Source: Fereydounia khargensis (Eukaryota > Basidiomycota > Ustilaginomycetes > Urocystidales > Fereydouniaceae). From it: a stretch of DNA of 64,000 bases. This document shows positions 1-64,000 of this stretch, one piece after another (position 1 is the first letter of the stretch; the number at the start of each line of letters is the position of its first letter). Below the pieces are notes generated by a model. It saw nothing but the letters and a program-made list of their open reading frames with translations, had not been told where the DNA came from and searched no databases. A program made the position numbers and the translations under genes. The stretch lies in NCBI GenBank assembly GCA_026413255.1, contig JAOCZO010000014.1, positions 278,187 through 342,186 on the forward strand, given 5' to 3'.

Positions 1-3000
1 GATGATAGTAGGAATGGTTGGAATGCCTCCTTTGTTCTGGTACTTGGACTGTGGTTGGCTGAGCGAAGAGAGCCGCCTTCGGAGGCTTTTTCCAGATGTG
101 GACGCGGCTGAGCTCAGCCTTTTGAGCCGGGCAAAAGCGAGAAGCGAGTCAGCGGCAGACGCAGAGAGCAGACGCAGAGAGCAGACGCGCGTACGAGAGA
201 CCCTCACGCTCTGCCACAAGTCAGATCACTTGCCCTTTCCCTTTGCTTCTTCCTCGACTCCACCTGGCGCCATCCAAAGCTACGTAAGCTGCAGGTGTGG
301 ACCCTACCTTCTCGTCCGAGAACTCTGCGGCTGCGCCACCGTACGTGCCCCTTCTGCCTCTCTGGAGCACGACATACTTAGGTTAGCAATGCACTGAAGG
401 CCAAGCCGCCCAAAAGAGGCATGTTGCAGGGTCATGATTACCACCTCTCCTCTGCCAGGTTCGCTGTATGCTTCATCTCGCACTGGGGTTTGCAGGTGGA
501 TGATATCGGGCGGTGAAGTGAGAAGAGAAGAAGAGCCTCGCGAATGCAGCAACATCCTCAGTCCGGACTATTGCTCGAAACACCGTCCATCGCGCATGAA
601 AAAAATGTTCAAAAATTGGCCTTCTGGTCACGACAACAATGCTTTTACAGCTGACCTGGAAAATGATTGCAAAGGTCCGAATCTTGCCTCCTCGAGCGGA
701 TAGGTTAGGAAGCTAGACCCGATAAGGCGTAGGCAAAGAGAGGGCTAGAGAGTCATGCTTAGCCAGACCCTGGCCGAGAAGTCGCCTGGCCCGACCCCGG
801 CCCCGGTCCCGTTCCCTGCTTTGCTTAAAGCGCTACAGGTGGTCTGGCGAGATAGACACACACGCATAGCTCGCCAAACGCACGCTTTTGTCATGAGTTC
901 GGTTGCAATGCTTGCTTGCTGCAGATGCACCGGGTCAGAACTGAGGCTCACGACGGTGTTGACGGCCACACACTTTTGAAAGCTCCCCACTTGACCAGCC
1001 GAGCCCAATACTGTAGATTGCGCAGGATACCGCAATGTAGTCGTGTGCTCTACTGTACTGTATTCTGTCTGTGCCCTCGTGGGTTCTCGTTTCCCTCAGA
1101 CATACGCACGCCGGCAGGTGTGCTGTATCCTGCCCAGCTGTGAATCATGCATCAATCAGCCGCAATCCCAGCTCGGAATGCTCCGCCAGGAACATTTCGA
1201 GGCTGCCTTTGCTGGATGCTGACGCGCAAAAGTTGCAACACAGAAGAAACTCGCCCGTCCCGAGGCAGCAGACAGTCAGGCCGGGCGGATGGCTGGCTGG
1301 CCCAACGTCACAGACCCCCGGGCCAGCACCTACTCGCCCTGCCTTCCGTGTACTGTACTGTACAGCACACTGAGTGTCTTGGCTCGCCAAGCGGGCCGGA
1401 GCAGCATGGCGTGGCCGTAGTTTCCATGGGTAAACTCACACTACGGTACGGTGCGTATGGGGTGCCTCCCCTCGCTCTAGCTTTCGCTTTCGGCCCATGC
1501 ATGTGATTTGAAAATGGATCGTTTCGACGCATTGAATTGCTTGCCTTTTCAAGTGCAGCCCATCCTGACGCCCACCAAACACGATCAGATCCGATTGCAT
1601 TACTGTAGTGTGCAACGCCCTCATTGTACTCTATCGACTGTGTGCGTAATGGTCGAGTGTTGCAAGGCGGGGCGAGTGGAGTGAGAGTGATCGACGCAGA
1701 CCAGCCTGCTCCAGCAGCTGCAAGCCCCGGGCCCGGGAGTGGTTGGCTCCGCAGGCAGAGGGTGAGTCTAACTGAAAGCGAGGGCCAGAGAAAAGAAAAA
1801 AGAGCGAGGGGAGCAAGGAGAGCGCGTGCCGAATCAAGTGACAGACAGGCAGGCAGGCAGGCAGGCAGGGCGCGCGGGGCGGGGCGGATGGATCGGATCA
1901 GAGCCAGGGAGGGAGGCGGAGGCGGAGGCTGAGGCTGAGCGAGAGCGAGGTTGCTTTCTTTGGCTTTCTTTGGTTTGGCTGCGCGGCAACGCAGACGCTT
2001 CTCCATTCTGATTGTCATTTGATCATTTCTGCCTATCTCGCCATCCATCGCACATCGCCCAGCCCACCCTATCCACCGGGTCCTGTCAAGAAACGGCCGC
2101 CGCCGCTGCGTTTTGCATTTGTCTTGATCTGCAATTCGGCTCAGCCCGCCGCCCCGCCCCACCACGCTCCTCCTGGACCCTTGCTACGCTCTCCCTAGGT
2201 CCCCGTTCCCGACCTGGTTCCCTCGCTCCCCCTTTCCCTGGTTGTGGTTGGATTGTCGAGACAAGCCCGGCTTTTGCCCGTTTCGTCCAGCCCGCCGCTC
2301 AAACCTAGCTCTCGCTCCAACGCCCCAACGCCATCCGCTGGCGCTTGGCCCTTTCCTCGCCGTGCTCCTTCCCCCCTCCCTCCCCTGTAGCCCGGCCTTC
2401 CCCTCCCGGCCTCGTTTGGGCCTCCCTTGCTGTGACCGTACCTCGTTTCGGTGTCTGCTCTCCGCCGTTCCTCGGCCATTCCTCGACCCTTCCCCACGCT
2501 GGCTAGGAGGGAGCCCAGAGTTTGAACGCCGTTGCGTCCCTCCTCGCCTCCCCGCCTCCCCCCTTCGGTTGCCACAATATCCGGAGGTTGCCGCCGTCGC
2601 CAACCCATCCCTCGTGGCTGGACCCTTTCCCCCTTTCCCGCATCGGTAAGTATGATTTGCCGGCAGTGCACATGGTCTCGTTTCCCTTGTTTGCGCCACA
2701 AACACTACCTTTCTTGCTTGCATGAGCAGCAAGCTCTCCCCTCATCAACCCCTTTGCCCTCTTCTTCTTCTCCTCCTCCTCCTCCTTCCCCCCCCCCCCT
2801 CCCCCCTCTCCTCCTTGACTCGGTCCTTCTCCCCTTCTTGACTTGCCCTCGCTGCTCTTGTCAGAGTTTTGCTGGTGCACGCTCATGTCATCCCGCCCGC
2901 TCGTTCGTTCGAACCTCCTTTTTCCTTCCTGGGCTGGTCCATTTGACATGGTCGTATCTGTCGAGGGGGGTCCCTCCCCCTTACTTTCCCTCGATCGATG

Positions 3001-40082: not shown

Positions 40083-41791
40083 ATGTTTGTTCGCGGTGTC
40101 CTCCTCGCCTTGGCAACTGCGGCCATCGCCACGGCCTCCCGCTCTGAAATCATCGGTGAATGCGGTGTCACTGCACAGCTTGTACGTTGAAACAATCGAG
40201 CTTTGCCCGTCCAGCTTGACTGGGCCCTAATCCCCGATCGTTTGTCAAACAGATGTTCCTTGGTACCGAGAGCAAGGTCTACATTCTGGATAAGGACGAA
40301 AACAACCCGTTGCGCGAGTCGTTCTTCAAGCCTGCCCTCACCGCCGAGTTTGACTTGATCACTCGCAAATGTCGGCCCATGAAGACGGTGACCAACCAAT
40401 TCTGTGCTGGCGGAGGCGCTCTAGGTGATGGTTCCTGGGTCAGCTTGGGCGGCAACCCACCTTACCTCTACGGAACCAAGGACGGTCTGCAGGCGATTCG
40501 CAGAGTCACTCCATGCAACGACAAATCGTGCCAATTCCGCGAGTCGAAAAACTTTCTACTCCAGAGGAAACGATGGTACCCGTCGGTCGAGACCATGCCT
40601 GACGGCTCGCTTGCCGCCTTTGCCGGTGCTGACAACAACGTCTTCATTCCCTTACCTTGGGCGTTTGGCCCCGCCGGTACCACCAACACGGTCGAGTTTG
40701 TTCCCTCCAAGGGTCCTCCCCGCGATCTCAAAGTGCTCGCCAGGGCTGATCCCTTCTCGCTCTACCCGCTCACCACGCTTCTCTCCAACGGCGAGGTCTT
40801 TATCACTGCTGGTAACCTCAGCGTCGCTTGGAACCCGGATTCAAACAAGGAGCGATTCTATCCCGAGATGCCGAATGGCCCCCGCAATTACCCGAGTGGT
40901 GGAGCCTACGCCTTGCTGCCCATGAAGCCCAGCGACGGGTACAAGCAGACCATCCTCTACTGCGGCGGCACTAATTTGCCCAAGTGGAGCAACCGATTCT
41001 GGTCAGACATTCCGCCATGGAAATACGATGCAAACAACAAGTGTGACACGATCACACCGCTTGGCGATGGTCAATGGAAATCTACAGACAGCCTACCACA
41101 GAACCTGGTCATGGGCAATGCAGTCATTCTTCCCGATGGTAAGATCTGGATGGGTAACGGAGCGCGCAAGGGAACTCAGGGCTTCGGTCTGAATGGACTG
41201 GGCGACTCGTACTCTGACGTGCCAGCGCGCACGCCGTATATCTACGACCCCGAGGCATCCTCGGGCCAGCGGTGGACTCGTGGTGCAGACATGAGGGTTC
41301 CTCGCATGTACCACTCTTCTGCGCTTCTCCTGCCTGACGGTTCAATCCTAACTGCCGGTAGCAATCCTCACGGCGACTCGATGACCTGGGCGGCACCCTA
41401 CCCGACCGAGTACCGATTGGAGGTGTTCTACCCGGACTACTATGACCAGCCGCGACCGTCGAACGACCAGCTGCCAGACAAGCTGGACTATGGAGGAGCC
41501 AAGTTCACGGTCAAGTTCAAGACCAAGGCTGAGGCGAGTGCGGCGGTAATCCGCGTGATTCGCCCCGCGTTCTCGACACACGGCTTGCAGATGGGGCAGA
41601 GGTCGATCGAGCTGGTCAAGAAGGTCTCAAGCAACGGGCTGGATGTCACATTCGAGAATATGCCCACTAACCGGGCACTGTACCCTCCGGGCCCAGCGAT
41701 GGTTTTCTTGGTGGTGAATGGCATCCCGTCGCAGGGCAAATGGGCCATCGTTGGGTCTGGGCAAGCACATCCTGGTTTCGTCGGTCTCTGA
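40083..41791 (+). CDS. Secreted glyoxal oxidase (copper radical oxidase, AA5)
   Basis: Exons 40083-40181 and 40253-41791 (intron 71 bp, phase 0), 545 aa. A signal peptide (FVRGVLLALATAAIATAS) is coded by exon 1, which is why the ATG at 40083 was chosen over the one at the exon 2 boundary. All active-site elements of the glyoxal oxidase family are visible: the cross-linking Cys in NQFCAGGG (about residue 84) and its Tyr in RKRWYPS (about 142), the axial Tyr-His in RMYHSSALL, and the second His in FSTHGLQMGQR. A C-terminal DUF1929 domain ends the protein. Reaction: aldehydes such as glyoxal and methylglyoxal plus O2 to acids plus H2O2. In smuts a related enzyme is linked to filamentation and virulence. 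Confidence 0.94.
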
Positions 41792-53149: not shown

Positions 53150-54567
53150 CCAATACGATTCCCATGACAAATTGCTCGATTTTGAAAGTGCGGCAGTGCT
53201 GACATCTGACCATTTGAAGGCCGATCGACTGTTCATGGTGCCAATGCCAAGCGCAGTGCTGTAGTGGAGTGACCACAAGGGAACCGATACAAGCTGAAAC
53301 GCCACGGGACATGGAGATGACAGCGACCGCACCGGTCGATCGACCAGGATTGGTATCCAACATGTAGGAGAGCTGTGAATGCCAAATACATTCGCCAACA
53401 TGTTGACAGAGCAAAGACGAGGGGATAATTCTTACCGTTCCACTATAGGCCCAGTTCTGGGTCTGGCCAATCAGAAATAGAGTGATGGCGGATCTACTTA
53501 TGTGAACGTGAGCCTTGGTAGCCCAAGCAAAAGCAATCATGGCCATGGGAAAGGTGATGAAGGCAGGTAAGATGCAGCGGGTGCGCTGCTCATGGTCTAT
53601 CCCTCCTCCTGGCACTGGATGAGTGCGGAGACATCTGTCCGAATACCAGCCACCAAAAAGAGATCCGACGATTCCACCAACACCCATTGAGAAGAACAGC
53701 GCCGACCTGGAGGAGGCTCAGGTTGTAGGGTGCCGCAGCAAAGGTGCGTGTGGCACTGTAGTTCAATACGTAATTACTCGCAAAGATGATGCCGCTGAGC
53801 AAGAGCGAAATCCGATTGTCGGGGCGTACAAGTACCCGTCCAGCAGAAGAGAGCGGCGACACAGTAAATCAGCAAAGCGGGGGCGGATTTTGCTGGGAGC
53901 TGGCAAAGGGGGTACTCCGTACCAGTCGGAGCCGATGGATCGAGTTGGTGGGAGTGCCGGGCTAGTGCTACTTGGTGAATTGAGTCAGCAGACCACCGAC
54001 AAATGGGCTGATCGCAGTCCCCAGAATTGGCATTGCGTAGTAGATGCCAACCTTTCCAACCCGCTCGCGCGGCTCGTACATCTCTGCTAAACTTCCCGTT
54101 GCAATGGAAGGAATGGCATTTGCACCCATGGCTTGCAACACTTGGAATGCAAAAAGTTCTGGCCTGTTTGATACAACGCCCGTGACTCCTGAGGAGATGG
54201 AAAGGAGAACCAAAAAGGCTATGAAGATTGGTTTTCGGCCCAACATATCCGACAAAGGAGCCCATGCCAGCGGTGTTACACCTTGAATCAAGATGTAAAG
54301 CGAGACTGTCAGGGCAATCAGCCCGTCAGTGGTATCCAAATCCTCCCGAATGTCCTTGAGAGCAGAAAACCAGATGTTAGCGGCCATGGAAGGAAGCATT
54401 GCTGCCCAAGCAAGGATCGCCAGTGTGACCAACTCGCTCGAAGCGCTCCAATTGAGAGGGCCGTCATTGACTGGGATATGATCCAAATCAATGTCGGAGG
54501 CTGTGACTGAGGCTGATTGTGGTGCATTATGGGGGAAGATGGATTTTGGACGCCGACGGGATCGCAC
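53150..54567 (-). pseudogene. Decayed DHA1-type MFS transporter
   Basis: The 5' part (54567-53968) codes TM1-TM5 of a drug:H+ antiporter (LAWAPLSDMLGRKPIFIAF is motif A; AISPFVGGLLTQF is TM5). The frame then stops at TAG about 53966. TM6 and the central loop, normally about 110 residues, are missing. Homology resumes in another frame near 53850 (LLSGIIFASNYVLNYSATR), shifts again at about 53680 (VGAVLL, then MGVGGIVGSLFGGWYSD), passes a plausible intron after NWAYSGT, and shifts once more near 53260 (PLQ, then TALGIGTM). No ATG precedes the first segment in frame. The order of segments leaves no doubt about the family; the breaks make a functional product unlikely. Confidence 0.85.
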
Positions 54568-55111
54568 TTGGGTGGGCGCCGGTGTCTGAACTCGTGCACT
54601 TCTTCCTGCACAGAAGGAGCCGTGGTCAGCGCCATGGCCTCTGACCCATTATGGATTTGGCTGTGATATGCTCGCGAGACAAACTGTGCAGTGGCAAAGA
54701 GGGGGTGAAAAGGTGCACAGTACTGTATTGAAACTCGTCGTGATGGGTGGAGCAATACACTTGTTCTTGGAATGGCATCACTTGCCAAACGAAGATTTAG
54801 TGCGATGCAAGAGTGCCAAAGTAATAGGTCGGAGGGTTTGATGGACCGGCCAGGGCTGATTGAACGCAGCACTGTGGCTCCAGCGTTGGAACGTTGAGGG
54901 ATCCCGCCAGGCAAGACACGCGTGTACAGTATCCGAAGCATATTGAACTCGTGGGCATGACACAGTTTCAGATCAAATGCTGCAGCAAATGGAAAGTCGT
55001 TTGGACTGGGAGACTGGTTCAGGGGCTTAGCTACTTCTGCTTCCCTGACAAGCAGGTTGATCGAAGATACAGTGATTCAGAACTTGAACAGCCCTTCGAC
55101 CAATCAGCACC
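54568..55111. other. Gene-free subtelomeric interval
   Basis: No gene is seen. A GTACTGTATTGAAAC block at 54720-54734 is identical over 15 bp to 11443-11457. Confidence 0.55.
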
Positions 55112-55372
55112 CTAACGCTCGTCGCTCCATTTAAAGATAATCTTCCTGACGCCAAAGTCGGAGGGACTGATACCACCGCCGCCACTGTCACCGCCGCAGC
55201 ATCCAAAGCAGCCCTCTTTGCATTCGGCTTCGACACCGCCCTTAGCCTCAGGAAGGGACTCGGCAAGGCCACTCAGCTCGTCAATCGGGGGTACCGGGTG
55301 ACACTCGGTTAAGGAAGGGGCTGAAATTGCCAGGGCGGCAACCATAACGAGAGCAGCGCACTCGAGCTTCAT
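55112..55372 (-). CDS. Small secreted protein A (subtelomeric family)
   Basis: 86 aa from ATG 55372 (MKLECAALVMVAALAISAP), chosen because this leader aligns with three other small genes nearby; the frame is open upstream but enters an intron. A signal peptide of about 23 residues is predicted. The mature part has four clustered Cys (CKEGCFGCC), a Gly run and a basic/aromatic end (KIIFKWSDER). The 5' UTR intron is about 55458-55393 (GTAAGTGT...AATTAG), ending 20 bp before the ATG, and TATAAG lies at 55526-55521. It matches no protein family I know. Secretion and an effector-like role are inferred from size, leader and subtelomeric location. Confidence 0.72.
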   Translation of the reverse strand: MKLECAALVMVAALAISAPSLTECHPVPPIDELSGLAESLPEAKGGVEAECKEGCFGCCGGDSGGGGISPSDFGVRKIIFKWSDER

Positions 55373-55392
55373 TGTCTTGCTGGGGGGAGGGC

Positions 55393-55458
55393 CTAATTTC
55401 AACAAATGATGTTAGCGACTGATGTCATCTGCAGTGGTGATCTTTTCTCTACACTTAC
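55393..55458 (-). other. 5' UTR intron of secreted protein A
   Basis: 66 bp, GTAAGTGT donor and AATTAG acceptor, 20 bp upstream of the ATG. Preceded by a CATCAGCTCAA element (55484-55474) that is identical to one in the leader of gene D. Confidence 0.65.
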
Positions 55459-55529
55459 TCGGTCCTGATGAAGTTGAGCTGATGGGTGAAAAAGAAGGAG
55501 AAGTACACTAACTGAACGTTCTTATACCT

Positions 55530-56818
55530 TTTTTCTGCGCAACGACAGATGGCTCAGTAATTCCATGGCTCGGTCATGTCATGCATAGGGATAAAGGACT
55601 GGTTTGAAGAGGATTTAAGAGACTAGCAGGAGGACCCGAGGCATTTCAGCGGTGAACCTGCAGCAATCGACATGGGGAGCTGAGGCTGAGTGGCTTGAGC
55701 TAACACTAGCACCCCTTCTCGAACTGCTCCGAGCTTTTGCAACGAGCGCAAAGCCAGACCGCATGGGGTGGGATCAGATTGAATCCCATTCAGCAACGGA
55801 GGCTAGCCTTCCAGGCCCTCCGAGCCCATGCGTCTCCGCAGCCTAGGGTCAGCCCATATCAAGCCTCGACCTCTGGCTGAGTAGCGCGATAGCGCTGCAC
55901 TTGTCCACGGAGTGAGCTAACGTCAATCCGCTTCACCAAGCCACGGTGCTAGTCTCGGAGTCATGGCGCTAGTCTCCGTTTGGAGACCTGCCAAGACGCC
56001 TCGCCAGCCAGACCACTGAAGTCTGTCAGTATGAACAAGCCGCAGTCCATCGCGTTCATGCCTTCCGAAAGCTTGCTTTGATCTCGGATTGAGGAATACT
56101 AAAGCACGCCTGTGCGGGCCAGTGACGCTTCATGCTCGCTCACTGCTCGGTCTTGGTGTCGCTAATCTCTGATTCATAAGTCATGTACTCAGTTGAAGTA
56201 GTCACAACGATGGCGGCGTCCGATTTCAAGTTAGCGCCGACATTCTATTAGGCCAAGGAGATGGCAAGCGTACGAACATACAGTAGCAGCAACTTGACGA
56301 CCACAATTGAAACATTTCCGGAAGCACCCAACTCAGTGTGTTACTGATACGAACAAATCGACGCTCAACACTCTAGGAGGGCAAGCACGCTCGGCCTGAT
56401 TTGCCTTGAGGCGTTTCGCTCAGACATTCAAGTGCGGAATGAGTGCTTTAGCATGAAGTCAAGTCCCCGAACAGTACAGCAATGACGCTTGAATGGCTTT
56501 GGAATTTGAGGCTGAATTTTAGCGCCGGAGCACTTTGGGACACTTTCGGCACACTCTTACCTTTTTCTGTCCAAGTACAATTATTCTGTATCCATAAAGG
56601 GAATTGAGAGAAGCTACAAGCCTCGAAAGAGTACCAAAAGTACATCTGCTGCTGCGCGATGTGCACCACCATCCGAGGCCCTATCTCCGGATGCAAGGTG
56701 ATAAGAATCAAGTGCCATGCTGGGAGGCCCACCAAGTACGAGTGCGCTTACTGTAGTTGGTGTACCCAAAATTCCAGGCTAGGTGCCATCACGCATGCTC
56801 TTGTCAACAGACAAAAAG
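55530..56818. other. Gene-free subtelomeric interval
   Basis: There is no supported gene. Two adjacent 'ctagtctc' phrases around 55950-55978 hint at a short local duplication. Open frames on both strands are short and without family resemblance. Confidence 0.5.
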
Positions 56819-56998
56819 CATAAAAGGAGCCTGATCAAGCGTACTGCTCCCATCCATTCATCAAGCAACGCATTCCTCTCCCTTTCCCCCCCTCGCCATT
56901 ACTTGAAGGTAAGCCAAGAGTTGGGCAAGTATTCATTGCCCCGGTATTGACGGCCTTACATTCTTTGCTCAAATGTTTCAAGCGTCGTTTGCATCACC
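56819..56998 (+). promoter_or_regulatory. Core promoter and 5' UTR intron of secreted protein B
   Basis: CATAAAAGGAGCCTGATCAA begins at 56819 and matches the promoter of gene D (63086-63108) at 20 of 23 positions. A TTCATCAAGCAACGCATTCC leader follows, then a 74-bp intron (56909-56982, GTAAGCC...TTCAAG) ending 16 bp before the ATG. Confidence 0.65.
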
Positions 56999-57268
56999 AT
57001 GAAGCTCGCCTTCTCTGTCGTCACTCTGGCGGCCTCTCTGGCCATCTGGGCCCCTTTCGCGGCTTGTATCCCCGTCATGGAGTTCACCAGTCTTGATGAC
57101 TTTGGAACCATCCTGACAGATGGCCTGAACAACAACTTTGGACTCAAGAAATGGGCCCCAGGAGGTTCTGGCGGCTACCGTTCGGAATCGCAAAGGTCCG
57201 AGTACGTTGACCCCATCAACGACGGTAGCAAGAGCGATGATGACGACGATCGTACCCTGAAAGGATGA
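56999..57268 (+). CDS. Small secreted protein B (subtelomeric family)
   Basis: 89 aa. The leader MKLAFSVVTLAASLAIWAPF aligns with the leaders of A, C and D. The mature part has no Cys, a Gly/Ser-rich middle (APGGSGGYRSESQ) and an acidic end with SDDDDDR. No family is recognised. The ATG sits just after a 5' UTR intron, as in the other members. Base composition of the surroundings is lower in GC than the housekeeping arm. It may be an effector or another secreted peptide; nothing in the mature part gives a biochemical role. Confidence 0.72.
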   Translation: MKLAFSVVTLAASLAIWAPFAACIPVMEFTSLDDFGTILTDGLNNNFGLKKWAPGGSGGYRSESQRSEYVDPINDGSKSDDDDDRTLKG

Positions 57269-58881
57269 GTTCACTTATGCTGAGGTGATCACTTGTCAAG
57301 CGTACTACATGCTTTCTCTTCAGGCCTGTCTTCTTTGTACTTACAGTACATTTCACAATCCTTGAAACCAATACAACCTCACTTTACACCTGCTAGGTGA
57401 ACATTCCTTCCTTGTGACGAAGTTTGGAAGACCGAGTGACGAAGGATGTTTGGATACCAAACAGAATCTAGGTCTTTCATGAATGGAGAAGGTGCGTGAT
57501 TTGTTAGACGTACGAAATGGCTGAATGCGAGGAAGAAAGCGGCTAACACGGCCGTCAAGTACTCCAGCTGCAACCCTGAAGCGATGATCATCTGCCCTGG
57601 ACCGACCGGTACAAGCGCATTCTTTGAATGAAAGGTTCAAGATCCGTTACACTCTTGTGCGTGGCATCTGAATGCCTCAAAAGGTCCTGGGACATTGCTG
57701 ACTAAATCCTTTCCACCTGTCATAGGGCATCGTGCCTTGAGCCGAAATACACACAGTAGCCGGGTGCCATTAGAGGAGGGGTCCAAGATACGGCATAATG
57801 CGTGCTGCATGTCCCCGTTCTCGGATTGATCTGGTTTCATTATCGCGCCCAGGTGCACAAAGCACCTGTGAGGTCTGAGAAATATTGGTATTGTGTACCC
57901 ACCGGAGCATCCAATCAACGACAATCGCATGCTCGAATTGCCATTGTCCACTCGACCTGAACATTCTGTGTTGTTCATGTCGCCCTCACACTGATGACTG
58001 GATCTATTGGACAGCGGGTCTGTGCACAGACTGTTGCTTTTGATCTGTAAGAATGATTAGCCTCCCTCTAGCTCTTCAAGGTGGGACCAACAGCAAGGAG
58101 TGAGGACCTCGGCAATCATAGCGGGGGAACGATTTTGACCAACGATCTCCGACAAGTTTTCCACCCTTTTTTTCCGTCACTGTGAAGAAGGTTGATGCCC
58201 GGAGCCTAACAGCCGAAAGCAGCGCTTCAAGTGGTTTTGCTGGAGTGCTAGCCTAGCATCCAAATGCTGAATTGGAGAGAGATAGGCACCGAAATTCTTC
58301 CGAGCCGGTGGCTGTCGGTTGTGGCGTGGACATGTGAGAGGAATTATTATATGAAGAAAATGTGACGAGCCATAGTGTGCGCCGAGCATGGAGCTCCACA
58401 AGCCTGCATCCGAAATCATCAGCGTGAAGTAAGCGATATCAAGTCCGGCGTTTTGAGTCGCACTGCTGATGTGCACTTCTGACTAAAGAAGCCCGTCGCC
58501 AGCCATATTTGTGGACGAAGCGTTTGAGACAGTTTAGAAAGTTCCCTGAGGCACCAACATACTAGTAAGATTACCTTACGTTAAGTTGCAACAGAGAGAC
58601 ATCCGAAAATGGTGAAAAACACAAGCCGGACCGAGACTAAAGGCATGGCTTGGAGAAGTGGCTGGACTGCAGCAAAGCGGATTAGCAAAATTGAACACGA
58701 CACTGCCGAGCAGTACAGTGAGAATGCCTGATTTCGATGGGCAAGCTTCCTTGATACGTCTAGCTCCAGGGTCCGATTCGATGCGGTCTGGGCATGTCTA
58801 TCTCTCGGTAAGCAGCCTGGGAGGCAGGGCCTCAAGGAAGGCTACAAGCGGCAGCCCTACGTAAAGAGACTCCGATAAAGG
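57269..58881. other. Gene-free subtelomeric interval
   Basis: No supported gene on either strand. Short frames (for example 58177-58476 minus) lack a leader, a start context and family resemblance. Confidence 0.5.
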
Positions 58882-59050
58882 CATAAAATGGTGGCAGACA
58901 ATGCTCCTTCTGCCTTTTCATCAATCAACTCACTCTCCTTATAATTGTTCTTAGCATCCTCAACTCAAAGGTGAGCAATCAGGCTCAAAACTACCCGGCT
59001 TACTGCGCTATGGCACTAACTTCCTATGCTGAAAGCCTCTCAGCATTTCA
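58882..59050 (+). promoter_or_regulatory. Core promoter and 5' UTR intron of secreted protein C
   Basis: CATAAAA at 58882 is followed by TTCATCAATCAACTCACTCT near 58918, much like gene B. A GTGAGC donor at 58971 and CTCAG acceptor (59043) define a 73-bp intron ending 7 bp before the ATG; an AAAG acceptor at 59035 is an alternative. Confidence 0.62.
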
Positions 59051-59272
59051 ATGGAGCTCACTTGCGCTGTACTTGCAATCATTGCTTCTCTAGCCATCTT
59101 AATCCCTATGGCCCAGTGTAGCCCCCCCTTTGAACTTGGAGGCTTTGGCAACTCTCTCTTGGACGTTGATAACATCCTTGCAGGTGGTTTCAAGTTCAAA
59201 CCCAATCGCATGAAGGAATACGACAGTGACGATGACGATGACGACGGGCGCATTAATCCCGACGATGATTGA
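59051..59272 (+). CDS. Small secreted protein C (subtelomeric family)
   Basis: 73 aa. The leader MELTCAVLAIIASLAILIP differs from that of D by only a few residues. The mature part is about 50 residues: a Gly/Phe/Leu segment (FELGGFGNSLLDVDN), a short basic patch (FKFKPNRMK), and an Asp-run ending (SDDDDDDGR). The acidic tail resembles that of B, so B and C may be sister copies. No family is recognised. Secreted localisation is predicted from the leader; the function is unknown. Confidence 0.72.
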   Translation: MELTCAVLAIIASLAILIPMAQCSPPFELGGFGNSLLDVDNILAGGFKFKPNRMKEYDSDDDDDDGRINPDDD

Positions 59273-60824
59273 TCACGCCAGCGAACACAAAGAGGCAAAG
59301 CGCTTCTGGTGAACCTTTTGGTCAGATATCTGTTATTTCCCAAGACAATCACAGTGTCTCTCCCTTTTTTTGCTTTGCTACTGCCTGTCCATTACCCAAG
59401 AACGCACATTGTTCACAACAAACACGTCAATTCACCTCCTTTCAACGTTGAAATCCAACTCTATGAGCTTTGAGTCATGAGAAGGCGACCTGATTCGACT
59501 GATAGCACCAACAAGAAGTTTTTGAATCTGAAATTCTGTCAAGACCGAGCAAGCCAGTCCTAGCAACGAGCATGAATGAAGATCCACTTGAATTCGGAAC
59601 AAAGTACCAACGACAAAGAGCGTGACTGCAGAGATTGGAGGAGGCATTGGGAGAAGTATTCAGTGACGTGTTTGAGAGCTGCTGCACTGTGGGTAAGAGA
59701 ATAAATGTAGCTTAGCTTTCTTGTATCAAAAGGGATGTGCTGGTTGATGAGGACCTCGCCATATGGAATTTGGACTTCATCGCGATCACAGCCTTATGAG
59801 CAAGTCAATTGGCATAGGCATAAACGTGTGAGATACTGTAACGGGCACAAGCCTGTACAAGTGGACACTGAATGAATACAACCAGCGTTTTTGAATTCGA
59901 TATTAAAAGTCCCTTGCAGGGCGCGCGGGGGTCTCTCACAGATCGCAAGTACTGTATTCAATTGAGGTTCAGAATAGGGTGCAGGCCATAAGTTACAGCA
60001 CAAACCTCAATGGTTCGTCATAACTGACGCTGCGGCTCGCTTCGCTCTCTTCGAGTGATCACAATACACCGTCAGTGCAACGCGTACAGTAATACAGCAC
60101 AGTATGTACAGTACCGTACGGTACATTACTGCACTTTACGCGCGGTGCTCTCCTATTTCCCGGCCCGAATCCGAAATCTCGCCTCCGTGACGTGCCGCGG
60201 CAGTATGTTGGGACACCGGCGGGAGGACAAAAAAAATGGTCGCCGGCCAACTGAGACGGGGCCACAGGGGTCAACTTCGCTTGGATATCTCCGATCTGCC
60301 AGTAACATGCAGCTCTGATTCCTCCCGACCAACCAGGGAAGGAGCTTTTTTACTCCTGTTTGCATCAAAACAAACTTCGGCACTTTCCGTCCATCCGTGC
60401 ATCGGTTGATCCCAACGGTTGAGATTCTCGTCGGCTACCCCAACCGAACTACTGTAGTTCAGCTGCTTGTCATGTCGTTTGACCGTCAAGCCACCTTGTG
60501 CCTTGTGCCTTGCCACCCGAGATTGTCCGCTCTCGTGATTGGACGCATGGGCAGATACAGTAGCGTGGCATCCTGCAGAGGAGACAAGCTAGTCATCGCA
60601 GGCCATATGGCTCTGAGTCAAGGTCGGGCGCATTGTGGCGGAGCCCCACCCCGTCCTAAAGCCCAGCCAATGATGCTCGTCAGACAGAGAGGGTCGTTCC
60701 TGGAGTAAAGAAAATTTGCCAGCCAGACTAGACCGAAAAGGAGGGGCCCCCTTACAATTGCGAATGCCCCCTGTCCTCTCTGTCTTCTCGTCTAACCACC
60801 ACCACCACCACCGACACCATAGAC
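59273..60824. other. Gene-free interval before the sugar transporter
   Basis: No gene is supported. It contains the densest group of TACAGTA/GTACGGTAC elements (60086-60132). A short minus-strand frame at 59432-59687 has a hydrophobic start but nothing else. Confidence 0.5.
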
Positions 60825-62384
60825 ATGCTGAACTTTCGAGGTTCAACGCTGCAAAACTTGCAGACCTCTCTCATCCTTGGCTTTTCCTTTGTCTCGTTTG
60901 GTTACAACCAGGCAGGCGTTGGTAGTCTCACCTCTGACAACTCTTGGACTCGTACCTTTCCAGAGATTGACACGGTTCACACAACCGGCCAAGTTAAATC
61001 TGACCATGCCACGCTACAGGGTCTGACCATTGCGGTCTTTACACTCGGTGCCCTGGTCACGACGCTACTGACCTCGGTCATCAACAATTCGGTCTCGCGA
61101 AAGAGCATTATCTATGCCGGCGCCGCTGTCTCTATTATTGGCGGCATCCTCCAGTCAACTGCCTTCACCTGGGCCCACTTTATTGTCGGACGAACCATTC
61201 TCGGCATGGGCATCGGCTTTTACAGCGCCGCTGTGCCCACATGGCAGTCGGAATGCTCTGCTACCAAGAATCGCGGCCAGCAGGTCATCACTACTGGTGT
61301 CTTTATGGCCCTCGGCTACGCTCTTGCTGCTTGGATTGACTTTGGTTTCCACCACCTGCAAAACTCGTCCGTCTCATGGCGCGCTCCTGTGGCTCTACCC
61401 ATCTTGCTTTCGGTTTTCGTCGCCATTCTCCTCCCCTTCTTCCCAGAGTCGCCGCGATGGCTCATTCTAAAAGGTCGTCACGAGGAGGCCGCCCATGAGC
61501 TCTCCCGTCTCCGCGACCTGCCGCTTGACGATCCTCGCCTGATCCAAGAGGTTGAGAGCATTCAGCGTTCGCTCAACCAGAGTACGCACGACGGGAAGAA
61601 GGAAGGCGAGAACGATGGCACCGAAACTCCAGCCTCTGGTGTGCCTGCACCTGCTCCGCGCGTCTACGGCAACAGAGCGATCCATCGCCTTCTTCTTTGC
61701 TTGCTCATCCAGTTCTACCAGCAAATGTGCGGCGGCAACCTGATTTCGGTCTATTCTACGACCCTATTCAAGTCGTACATGCACCAGAGCGACAGCGTCT
61801 CGCGCATCCTGGCCGCCTCGGCACTCACCTGGAAAGTATTTGCCAGCTTTGTCGGCTATCTCACCATTGACCGATTTGGCCGACGACCCATCATGATGTT
61901 CAGCGGTGGCGGTATGGCCATTTGCATGTTCATCCTCGCCGGCACGGCGAGCCAACCTGACAACAAGGTTGCCAACGCCTTTACCGCTCTGTTCCTCTTC
62001 CTATTCAACTTTGTCTACCCAATCGGCTTCCTTGGTGCCAACTTTGTCTACGTCACCGAACTGTCGCCAAACCACCTCCGCTCAGTCTTTACACCCCTTT
62101 CCGTGGCCAACCACTGGCTCTTCCAGTTCCTCGTCCAGATGATCACTCCTCTCGCCATTGAGGAGATTGCCTGGCGCTATTTCCTGGTCTATGGCTCGGT
62201 ATCAGCTTGCATTCCTGTGACAATCTTCCTCCTCTATCCCGAGACAATGGGCATGGGTCTCGAGCAGATTGACCAGTGCTTTGCCGCCCCGACAGTACTG
62301 CACGTTCCTGGATATGCAGCACAGATGCGCAAGGAAATGTTGGCCCAGAACACTTCCACTGCCTTTCCCCAAGACCTTGCCTAG
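60825..62384 (+). CDS. MFS sugar transporter
   Basis: Single exon, 519 aa with about 12 membrane segments. Sugar-porter signatures are present: FGYNQAGVGSL in TM1, VGRTILGMGIGFYSAAVP, PESPRWLILKGR after TM6, YQQMCGGNLISVYS in TM7, DRFGRRP between TM8 and TM9, and YPETMGMGLEQID at the end of TM12 (the PETKG-type motif). QQMCGGN departs from the usual QQ(I/L)(S/T)G(I/V)N. Role: uptake of a hexose, pentose or disaccharide at the plasma membrane; the substrate is not readable. Intact and intronless within the otherwise gene-poor subtelomere. Confidence 0.92.
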   Translation: MLNFRGSTLQNLQTSLILGFSFVSFGYNQAGVGSLTSDNSWTRTFPEIDTVHTTGQVKSDHATLQGLTIAVFTLGALVTTLLTSVINNSVSRKSIIYAGAAVSIIGGILQSTAFTWAHFIVGRTILGMGIGFYSAAVPTWQSECSATKNRGQQVITTGVFMALGYALAAWIDFGFHHLQNSSVSWRAPVALPILLSVFVAILLPFFPESPRWLILKGRHEEAAHELSRLRDLPLDDPRLIQEVESIQRSLNQSTHDGKKEGENDGTETPASGVPAPAPRVYGNRAIHRLLLCLLIQFYQQMCGGNLISVYSTTLFKSYMHQSDSVSRILAASALTWKVFASFVGYLTIDRFGRRPIMMFSGGGMAICMFILAGTASQPDNKVANAFTALFLFLFNFVYPIGFLGANFVYVTELSPNHLRSVFTPLSVANHWLFQFLVQMITPLAIEEIAWRYFLVYGSVSACIPVTIFLLYPETMGMGLEQIDQCFAAPTVLHVPGYAAQMRKEMLAQNTSTAFPQDLA

Positions 62385-62721
62385 TTTGCTTCGACTATGT
62401 ATCAGTAGATTCAATTGCAGATGCTACTACATTCCTATGCGAGCGAGCCTTGCCCCAGGCCTTTGTCCTCTTTTCGTAAATGATCACTCGGTATCGGGAA
62501 ATGTAACAATGCACTCCAGGCAAATAAGCGTGTGAGTGATCACTGACTGCCATGGAGACAAAAGCGACTGCCATCAGCCCGCGTGATGGACCGAGCAACT
62601 TTGCGGTTGTGTTGGATCCGGACGCCTTTCAATATTGTACGTTACATTTGGGTATCGGAGGGCCAGGTTTAGCTCGCTTGATAGATCTGCATACTGTGGT
62701 AACTAGTCTCCAACACTGTAC

Positions 62722-62985
62722 TGACTAGAGTCGGAGACAGAGCCGGGCCCGGACACAGAGCTGATTAGACTCGGACACCCAGCTGACTAGGCTCGGACAC
62801 AGAGCTAGGCCCGGACACAGAGCTGATCAGACTCGGACACACAGCTGACTAGACTCGGACACAGAGCTAGACTCGGACACAGAGCTAGACTCGGATACAG
62901 AGCTACACAGAGCTAGACTCGGAAACAGAGCTAGACTTGCACACAGAGCTGGCTACACTCGGACACAGAGCGACACAGAGCTGGA
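62722..62985. repeat. Subtelomeric minisatellite (GACTCGGACACAGAGCTA type)
   Basis: About 14 imperfect copies of an 18-bp unit (GACTCGGACACAGAGCTA), some lengthened to about 22-23 bp by an extra CTGA/CTAG piece and some shortened to CACAGAGCTA. It lies between the sugar transporter and secreted protein D, 100 bp before D's TATA box. No coding frame runs through it. Confidence 0.92.
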
Positions 62986-63085
62986 ATGTGAGGGGAGGAT
63001 AGGCCTGAAGCTAGCCACCATGAGACAAGTTGCTCGACGCTGCACTGCTTGGAAGCACTGGCAATGCTTTGTCTTCAGTTTCAGA

Positions 63086-63338
63086 CATAAAAGGAGACTG
63101 GTCAAGCAAGTCCCTCCAACCCTTTCCCTCATCAGCTCAATCCCCTCTCTCACCTTCACCCTTATCATCCACAATCATCTCCCATCTCCTCTCTTTGCAG
63201 TTACCCCTCTCTGTTGGCCTCTTTTGCCTCTGCATCAACTATCCTCAGTCCAAGGTGAGCTACACACAGGGCCTTTTTTATTCACATTTTTTTTGCTAAT
63301 GTCCTGAATCATTATTTGTTGGGCAACTCAGCTACACC
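63086..63338 (+). promoter_or_regulatory. Core promoter and 5' UTR intron of secreted protein D
   Basis: CATAAAAGGAGACTGGTCAA begins at 63086, the counterpart of the gene B promoter. A CATCAGCTCAA element (63130-63140) is shared with gene A. The 5' UTR intron is 63255-63331 (77 bp, GTGAGC...CTCAG), ending 7 bp before the ATG. Confidence 0.65.
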
Positions 63339-63572
63339 ATGAAGCTCACCTGCACTGTCCTTGCCATGGTTGCCTCCCTGGCTGTCTTGGCCCCTCTCAC
63401 CAAAGCTCTCCCTGCCCTTCAGGTTGGGGAGATTGGTGAAGCCATTGCAAACTCAGCTCATGACATTTCTGAGGTTACTATCCATGACCCAGATGGTTGG
63501 TCCTACATTTACCCTGATACTGGGGGCAACATGTGGATTCACAAATACAGGACAGCCGACGGCGAGAACTAG
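63339..63572 (+). CDS. Small secreted protein D (subtelomeric family)
   Basis: 77 aa. The leader MKLTCTVLAMVASLAVLAPL is near-identical to that of C. The mature part begins ALPALQVGEIGEAIANS and continues with DPDGWSYIYPDTGG and MWIHKYRTADGEN, rich in Trp/Tyr and His, with no Cys and no Asp-run. No family is recognised. It is the last gene before the telomere, whose repeat array starts about 350 bp further on, so its expression could be under telomere position effect. Secretion is predicted; the role is unknown. Confidence 0.72.
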   Translation: MKLTCTVLAMVASLAVLAPLTKALPALQVGEIGEAIANSAHDISEVTIHDPDGWSYIYPDTGGNMWIHKYRTADGEN

Positions 63573-63925
63573 GTCAACCATCATAAACAAGACTCAAAGT
63601 TTAAGGGTTCCCAGACACACAACTCAAGAAGCTGCAGTCCCTTCCACCCTGTTCCTTACTTTCCTTCCTAGCACTCATTCCCATTCTCCCCTACCTCTAG
63701 CTTGCCTGGAGCAACATTCCTTGCTGTATTTTCCTTTCTTCTTCAGTATGTCCTGGCCTTGATAAGCCAGGTTGAGTTAGGAGGCAGACCTACAAATCAA
63801 ATTCTTTCAAACCTAGTACTAGGCCTTGGTGTTATGGCCGCTAGTGCCTAGGCCGGAATGGAGGGGTTTAAGCCTGCAGTGAGGGCGCGGTAGGCTTAGG
63901 GGTATCCAGGCGGTAGTGCTAACAA
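63573..63925. other. Telomere-adjacent unique sequence
   Basis: About 350 bp without a gene. It is rich in CTAG/CCTAGG words (CTAGTACTAGGCC near 63813, CTAGTGCCTAGG near 63841). Confidence 0.5.
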
Positions 63926-64000
63926 GGGTTAGGGTTAGGGTTAGGGTTAGGGTTAGGGTTAGGGTTAGGGTTAGGGTTAGGGTTAGGGTTAGGGTTAGGG
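63926..64000 (+). repeat. Telomeric (TTAGGG)n array, right chromosome end
   Basis: Twelve and a half perfect GGGTTA units to the last base of the window. G-rich strand 5'->3' towards the end marks this as a right-hand chromosome terminus. TTAGGG is the usual repeat of basidiomycetes. Confidence 0.97.

Follow-up and report, generated by a model that had tools for sequence, protein, structure and literature searches.

Four leader-sharing genes at a chromosome end

The window analysed here, 64,000 nucleotides (nt) of Fereydounia khargensis DNA, covers positions 278187-342186 of the contig that we label C14 and forms the right end of that 342-kb contig, in an assembly of 10.46 Mb and 40 contigs. 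Beside its terminal TTAGGG tract lie four short open reading frames (ORFs), A, B, C and D, at exactly the coordinates that a first-pass annotation of the window had given (Table 1). That annotation had proposed that the four genes join one constant secretory leader to unrelated mature parts, a layout that it likened to that of venom peptides. Our follow-up indicates that A-D probably belong to a lineage-restricted, mostly subtelomeric family of small secreted acidic proteins that evolves by birth and death.

Searches with single proteins found at least 13 members in the genome: A-D and nine others, which we name after their contigs (C3 carries two, C3a and C3b; the additional gene on C14 is written C14:73168). 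Because the search scores best candidates only, 13 is a lower bound. A database protein described below, P0006, recovered 12 of the 13 as a query at E 0.009 or better, with C3a included (1.6e-4) and C6 missed. Some links are weak: B as a query gave E 0.04 and 0.07 with other members, and its match to the P0006 query was at E 0.009. A match at C5:388729 (E 0.3) lay inside another ORF and was excluded before members were counted.

The distance to a contig end is at most 15.3 kb for 12 of the 13 genes and for eight of the nine independent loci. Sequence this close to an end makes up ~12% of the assembly, and the enrichment corresponds to binomial values of 7.6e-11 for genes and 2.8e-7 for loci, with the 15.3-kb limit derived from the data themselves. 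Telomere repeats are present at six of the eight ends concerned (C14, C3, C6, C25, C13, and C30). The expectation that more copies, with conserved leaders and diverse tails, would be found at other contig ends was borne out. We also searched the genome for a 24-nt core of the leader DNA, allowing up to three mismatches, and obtained six forward, no reverse, and no control matches. Four of the six are members (C30, C13, D, and C25); the remaining two, at C8:458814 and C16:190893, were set aside, with no family-like gene within 601 and 401 bases of context, respectively.

Conservation is concentrated in the leader

We divided each protein into a leader (codons 1-23), a middle block (residues 24-45), and a tail (residue 46 onward). 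In the alignment, mean amino acid (aa) identity is 0.47 in the leader, 0.30 in the middle block, and 0.09 in the tail. The leader is thus more conserved than the mature region, and the proportion of differing nonsynonymous sites (pN) is lower in the leader than in the middle block in 71 of 78 pairs. As the annotation had stated, the first residues of A-D align as protein; most pairs tested also align there as DNA. Over the family, its claim that the leader changes more slowly than the cargo also stands; a near-identical database relative of A, with leader changes beside an unchanged tail, departs from it and shows that the leader is not invariant (see below). The claim that mature parts are unrelated fits the tails as a whole, but not the middle block, which is acidic and recognisably shared, nor some classes of tail. 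By eye, a [DE]-C-x(3-6)-C pair recurs in the tails of A, C30, C6, and C3a, and a DG/aromatic stretch in those of D, C25, and the database protein P0008. The mature part has no cysteine in nine members and at least one in four, and no conserved cysteine scaffold was found among the 13.

All 13 leaders are hydrophobic, with a 13-residue Kyte-Doolittle maximum of 2.1-3.1 versus 0.13-0.97 in the rest of the protein. Residue 2 is mostly Lys or Arg (Glu in C), and small residues precede a plausible cut; the hydrophobic core and its flanking residues make the leader a candidate signal peptide. The mature part carries a net charge of -2 to -10 in all 17 proteins computed (the 13 genomic members, P0006, P0008, P0011, and P0012), and the middle block is net negative in all 13 genes (mature minus tail charge). 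A model of D from a 16-sequence alignment (mean predicted local distance difference test, 64; predicted template modelling score, 0.34) tentatively places a helix at residues 26-42 and strands at 45-49, 54-59, and 68-71.

To locate conservation in the DNA, we compared 66 pairs of the 12 intron-bearing genes region by region, and counted those in which identity exceeded the shuffle mean by 3 standard deviations. The leader did so in 34 pairs. Two outcomes that the annotation had named as refuting its proposal, an absence of further copies and leader nucleotide identity at chance level, were thus not observed. The corresponding counts were seven for the middle block, eight for the predicted intron in the 5' untranslated region (UTR), four for the 5' UTR, one for the tail (a wide null with low power), and none each for the 3' flank and the 80 nt upstream. 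Observed and shuffled identities were 0.667 versus 0.540 in the leader, 0.563 versus 0.515 in the middle block, 0.617 versus 0.545 in the intron, 0.564 versus 0.529 in the 5' UTR, 0.612 versus 0.607 in the tail, and 0.520 versus 0.518 in the 3' flank.

In blastn comparisons, leader matches between members start at -11 to +38 relative to the ATG and end at +9 to +119, mostly at +44 to +92; those joining A to D, C13, C25, C30, and C6 span about -11 to +60. Longer matches connect C13 with C16 (to +139) and D with C25 (from about -495 to +114). Upstream, C30 and D share a 52-nt match at -211 to -161 (79%), B and D share 22 nt around the TATA-like box, and C3a gave short or repeat-like matches to other members.

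Silent sites of the leader are conserved beyond codon bias

Where two members share a residue, they also use the same codon for it in 449 of 747 leader comparisons (0.601), 210 of 493 in the middle block (0.426), and 33 of 102 in the tail. We set these values against three nulls of 1000 runs each, in which codons were shuffled, either within the leader or across the whole gene, or were sampled from 13 ORFs of the window. For the leader, the nulls gave 0.435, 0.378, and 0.364, and no run of any of them reached the observed value. The result stands on reduced sets, at 0.592 for 11 genes (without the two closer copies) and 0.689 for eight genes.

The mean proportion of differing silent sites (pS) over all 78 pairs is 0.51 in the leader and 0.64 in the middle block, with the leader lower in 63 pairs. 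Among five pairs with a silent divergence (dS) value, the leader gave 0.25-0.51 whatever the kinship, and the middle block 0.32-0.46 in two sister pairs and 0.61-3.4 in three others, a contrast that is biased because D-C30, D-C13, and C13-C30 were chosen for good leader matches; the all-pair mean pS gives the fairer comparison. Tail silent sites have reached saturation, with pS of 0.74 and 0.86 even in the two most closely related pairs, so that replacement, insertions and deletions, or very fast change are all possible there.

Gene structure and surroundings

A common gene architecture, also claimed by the annotation, was recovered upstream of the ATG. Twelve of the 13 members, A-D included, carry the signature of a 5'-UTR intron, i.e., GTRAGY 79-102 nt before the ATG followed by a branch-like motif and an AG, and all 13 have a TATA-like match 155-287 nt before the ATG, the intron ranges and TATA patterns having been fixed after inspection of the gene sequences. 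Shuffled sequences gave the intron signature in a mean of 0.03 of 13 genes, and in at most 1 of 13 over 2000 shuffles. The introns are predicted from these signatures, and an alternative 3' AG is available at -5 and -22 in A and at -17 in C. The sole member without the signature, C3a (L067 around 1238), could be a case of intron loss or a retroposed copy.

Table 1. Features of the four window genes (window positions) and further family members (contig positions)
Feature	Position	Strand	Description and basis
Gene A	55112..55372	-	86 aa; Cys-pair type tail and Gly run; ORF, family matches
Leader of A, codons 1-23	55304..55372	-	Alignment, hydrophobic core, DNA matches
Predicted 5'-UTR intron of A	55380..55458	-	GTAAGT at -86, CTAAC at -43; 3' site at -9 assumed
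TATA-like box of A	55521..55527	-	Pattern match
Gene B	56999..57268	+	89 aa; Asp-run tail; ORF, weak family matches
Leader of B, codons 1-23	56999..57067	+	77% DNA identity to D over 64 nt
Predicted 5'-UTR intron of B	56909..56982	+	GTAAGC at -90, CTTAC at -44, AG at -18
TATA-like box of B, CATAAAAGG	56819..56827	+	Pattern match
Gene C	59051..59272	+	73 aa; Asp-run tail; ORF, family matches
Leader of C, codons 1-23	59051..59119	+	Protein alignment, DNA comparison
Predicted 5'-UTR intron of C	58971..59043	+	GTGAGC at -80, CTAAC at -35, AG at -9
TATA-like box of C	58882..58888	+	Pattern match
Gene D	63339..63572	+	77 aa; Trp/Tyr-rich tail; ORF, family matches
Leader of D, codons 1-23	63339..63407	+	86% DNA identity to C13 (+1..64) and C30 (-4..65)
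Residues 24-45 of D, conserved acidic block	63408..63473	+	Alignment; helix 26-42 in one low-confidence model
Predicted 5'-UTR intron of D	63255..63331	+	GTGAGC at -84, CTAAT at -43, AG at -9
TATA-like box of D, CATAAAAGG	63086..63094	+	Pattern match
Telomeric TTAGGG tract, contig end	63926..64000	+	Begins ~350 bp past D
Member C25	C25:146750	+	
Member C19	C19:245529	+	
Member C13	C13:338361	+	
Member C30	C30:116293	+	
Member C16	C16:298670	-	
Member C14:73168	C14:73168	+	
Member C3b	C3:3151	+	
Member C3a	C3:1238	+	
Member C6	C6:10393	+	

Between C and D lies a single-exon sugar transporter ORF (Pfam Sugar_tr; window 60825-62384), 1.6 kb from the contig end, and between this ORF and D, CGGACACAGAGCT units form a minisatellite-like array (window 62700-62990); by eye, CGGACA units are present near the C3 telomere too (L067). 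A stretch of ~130 bp on the telomere side of the genes is 79% identical between C30 (L005 1861-1990) and D (window 63672-63801), and partly resembles the sequence after C6 (71% and 78%, in pieces). GC content is 0.48-0.55 in window positions 54001-64000 versus 0.51-0.65 across the remaining window, where a glyoxal oxidase-like gene (Pfam Glyoxal_oxid_N) is located at 40253-41791. Telomere repeats cap both ends of at least four contigs of ~0.5 Mb each (C3, C5, C6, and C7), an indication that this 10.5-Mb genome is divided among many small chromosomes.

Database relatives are few and unnamed

Two profile searches of 5.8 billion proteins, which require shared 5-residue words and may therefore miss distant relatives, returned nine proteins each, 13 of them distinct, and none of the 13 has a name or a Pfam domain. 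Four are identical copies of members: P0002 and P0005 are the window's own D and B, P0003 equals C14:73168, and P0013 equals C6. Another four (P0001, P0004, P0007, and P0010) are 1-3 positions off members; P0001, for example, differs from C at 3 of 73 residues. The same database does hold named smut proteins, since the Mo25 of the window is 79% identical to that of Violaceomyces palustris and 64-77% identical to those of the other named smut-group fungi examined among the 120 matches listed; by this single protein, the fungus is probably an ustilaginomycete. With 12 members as queries (C3a left out), no Pfam match was found at E 1; the best Protein Data Bank matches (E 0.26 and 0.71) were both to ribosomal protein P0 and were taken as chance; and no described fungal family of such a type, judged by titles and abstracts, fits.

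The remaining relatives show how differently the three regions can change. P0011 is identical to C30 in the leader (0/23 differences) and middle block (0/22), and differs from it at 25 of 50 tail columns. P0008, 57% identical to D, differs from it at 2 of 23 leader residues, 12 of 22 middle-block residues, and 23 of 34 tail residues. For P0012 and A, the corresponding differences are 12/23, 10/22, and 24/42, yet the stretch ECKEGCFGCCGGD is common to both. P0006 differs from C16 at 7/23, 15/22, and 26/36 residues; it has no close copy in the genome, where its best-scoring match is 47% identical over 58 residues, which is consistent with gain and loss.

Two other identities were considered and dropped. 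Basidiomycete pheromone precursors are recognised by a C-terminal CaaX motif, and none of the 13 members ends in one. Kex2-type processing was not adopted because a dibasic pair occurs in the mature part of just 4 of the 13.

Interpretation and comparison with known systems

We propose that the leader would take the protein into the endoplasmic reticulum and be removed near residues 23-25, and that the remainder may be released outside the cell to act on a host plant or a competing microbe. The family would diversify as chromosome ends recombine and duplicate, with tails replaced or changing fast, and the leader would be preserved either by selection, acting on its RNA or its peptide, or by short conversion events among the copies. 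A further-reaching reading, that a venom-like design arose independently in a basidiomycete, with a leader whose DNA is itself protected (through selection on the RNA or leader-only conversion), tails replaced at chromosome ends, and the histories of the two uncoupled, is one that we hold tentatively, as a possibility short of an even chance. The venom-like layout described by the annotation stood in so far as leader silent sites are conserved beyond codon bias; it is only partly supported because conservation continues as far as residue ~45, some tails resemble one another, certain close relatives changed in the leader while keeping the tail, and a role as effector or toxin is one that we infer.

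In buthid scorpion toxin genes, the leader is conserved in peptide and DNA and the mature region has diverged; wobble sites of the leader evolve about two-fold slower than the intron, and one copy is intronless. That study makes the case for purifying selection at the DNA level and deems recent exon-specific gene conversion unlikely (PMC2651877). The family described here is alike in its aa-conserved leader, leader silent sites that change below the neutral rate, diverged mature part, and one intronless copy (here C3a). It is unlike the scorpion genes in that it is fungal, has acidic mature parts and no shared cysteine scaffold, and has no known toxin activity; moreover, the intron lies near the leader end in scorpions, whereas here its signature lies in the 5' UTR and its sequence is mostly unalignable. 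The two patterns are of one kind, save for the cysteine scaffold.

Other systems share parts of this layout. Hessian fly genes for small secreted salivary gland proteins (SSSGPs) join a near-constant signal peptide to a super-diversified mature region, and their promoter, UTRs, and intron are also highly conserved, for which the authors invoke homogenisation (PMC2955719). Small secreted proteins (here predicted to be so) with a conserved leader and a diverse mature part are common to both; the conservation of UTRs and intron is not, given the few pairs above threshold in the intron (8/66), 5' UTR (4/66), and 3' flank (0/66). Amanita MSDIN precursors, of 35-36 aa, have a Met-Ser-Asp-Ile-Asn leader and a conserved follower and are cleaved by POPB (PMC10356791). 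They too are short fungal genes with a constant leader and a variable core, but the leader here is hydrophobic, and by eye an MSDIN-type leader and follower occur in none of the 13 sequences. In the smut Sporisorium scitamineum, clusters of genes of unknown function lie near chromosome ends, and some are expressed only in planta (PMC4466345). Our family resembles them in position, in having no known function, and in belonging to the same subphylum; it differs in that the matches of the profile searches, within the reach of their word requirement, include no named ustilaginomycete protein.

Weighing explanations for the conserved leader

Several observations weigh against a subtelomeric family with a specially protected leader. 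One member, C14:73168, is internal to its contig, and the ends of C19 and C16, when inspected, showed no telomere repeat. P0009 differs from A at 3 of 23 leader residues and 1 of 22 middle-block residues but at none of 41 tail residues (4 of 86 in total). Nor do leader silent sites change clearly more slowly in the two recent pairs (dS in leader versus middle block, 0.37 versus 0.46 for D-C25 and 0.51 versus 0.32 for C13-C16). A weak excess of shared codons is also possible in the middle block, where the nulls gave 0.401, 0.361, and 0.382 and the observed value was reached by 89, 4, and 69 of 1000 runs. In a gap-free set of six genes, residues 24-49 shared 63 of 121 codons (0.521), a value reached by 30 of 2000 shuffles; this excess vanishes without C25 and C16 (0.415, reached by 272 of 2000). 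With gap-free sets of four and three genes, 1 and 8 of 2000 shuffles, respectively, gave as large an excess in the leader. Finally, the silent-site test counts related genes as independent, so that its counts are not exact probabilities.

One alternative is short gene conversion, in which leader-only tracts of ~70 bp are copied between members and the age of a leader is independent of that of its gene. In its favour, leader and middle-block distances are not clearly correlated (Mantel r 0.27, p 0.11 in 13 genes; r 0.09, p 0.35 without C3a), and leader silent sites gave r -0.08 and -0.27. At silent sites, the D leader has diverged less from the C30 leader (dS 0.25) than from the leader of its sister gene C25, and upstream, D aligns over ~500 bp with C25 but over 52 nt only with C30; the P0009 leader, changed beside a tail identical to that of A, points the same way. 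We nevertheless consider this account rather unlikely. Its tracts would be very short and flanked by mostly unalignable intron and tail, and an average pair of leaders differs at 31% of nonsynonymous sites. The low dS of D-C30, D-C13, and C13-C30 is partly a selection effect of how these pairs were chosen, and with ~17-19 silent sites per pair, single dS values are noisy.

That the members are plain old paralogues, a fast-evolving secreted family in which a hydrophobic signal-peptide requirement and codon bias alone keep the leader, we regard as unlikely. The within-leader synonymous shuffle and the window-ORF codon usage both fall short of the observed codon sharing, and TTG, which makes up 7% of Leu codons in 13 window ORFs, stands at column 18 in five of the seven members with Leu there. 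Points in its favour are the ordinary silent divergence of the leader in recent pairs and the conservation of residues 24-45, with their slight codon excess. More doubtful still is that the leader DNA is itself an RNA element, such as a signal-sequence coding stretch that promotes translation or the export of mRNA. In animal cells, silent adenines partly inhibit signal-sequence RNA elements, and genes that have an intron in the 5' UTR show relaxed silent constraint on their signal-sequence regions (PMC3077370). The leaders here are low in adenine (13.4% versus 22.8% in the remaining coding sequence), as such an element would have it, but hydrophobic codons by themselves reduce adenine content, and the intron signature in 12 of 13 members counts against such a mechanism in this family, to the extent that results from animals carry over. 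For the conservation of the leader, we lean to selection, to which conversion may have contributed; the data would fit either selection on a portion of the silent sites or repeated short conversion.

Silent-site conservation of leader DNA is described for scorpion toxin genes (PMC2651877), and cone snail peptides are cited as a case of codon conservation at specific positions. With its 13 short genes in a 10-Mb genome and allele-like relatives in public databases, the present fungal family could allow RNA-level constraint and short gene conversion to be told apart. The family also points to a possible route by which a small-genome relative of the smuts may renew secreted peptides at its chromosome ends.

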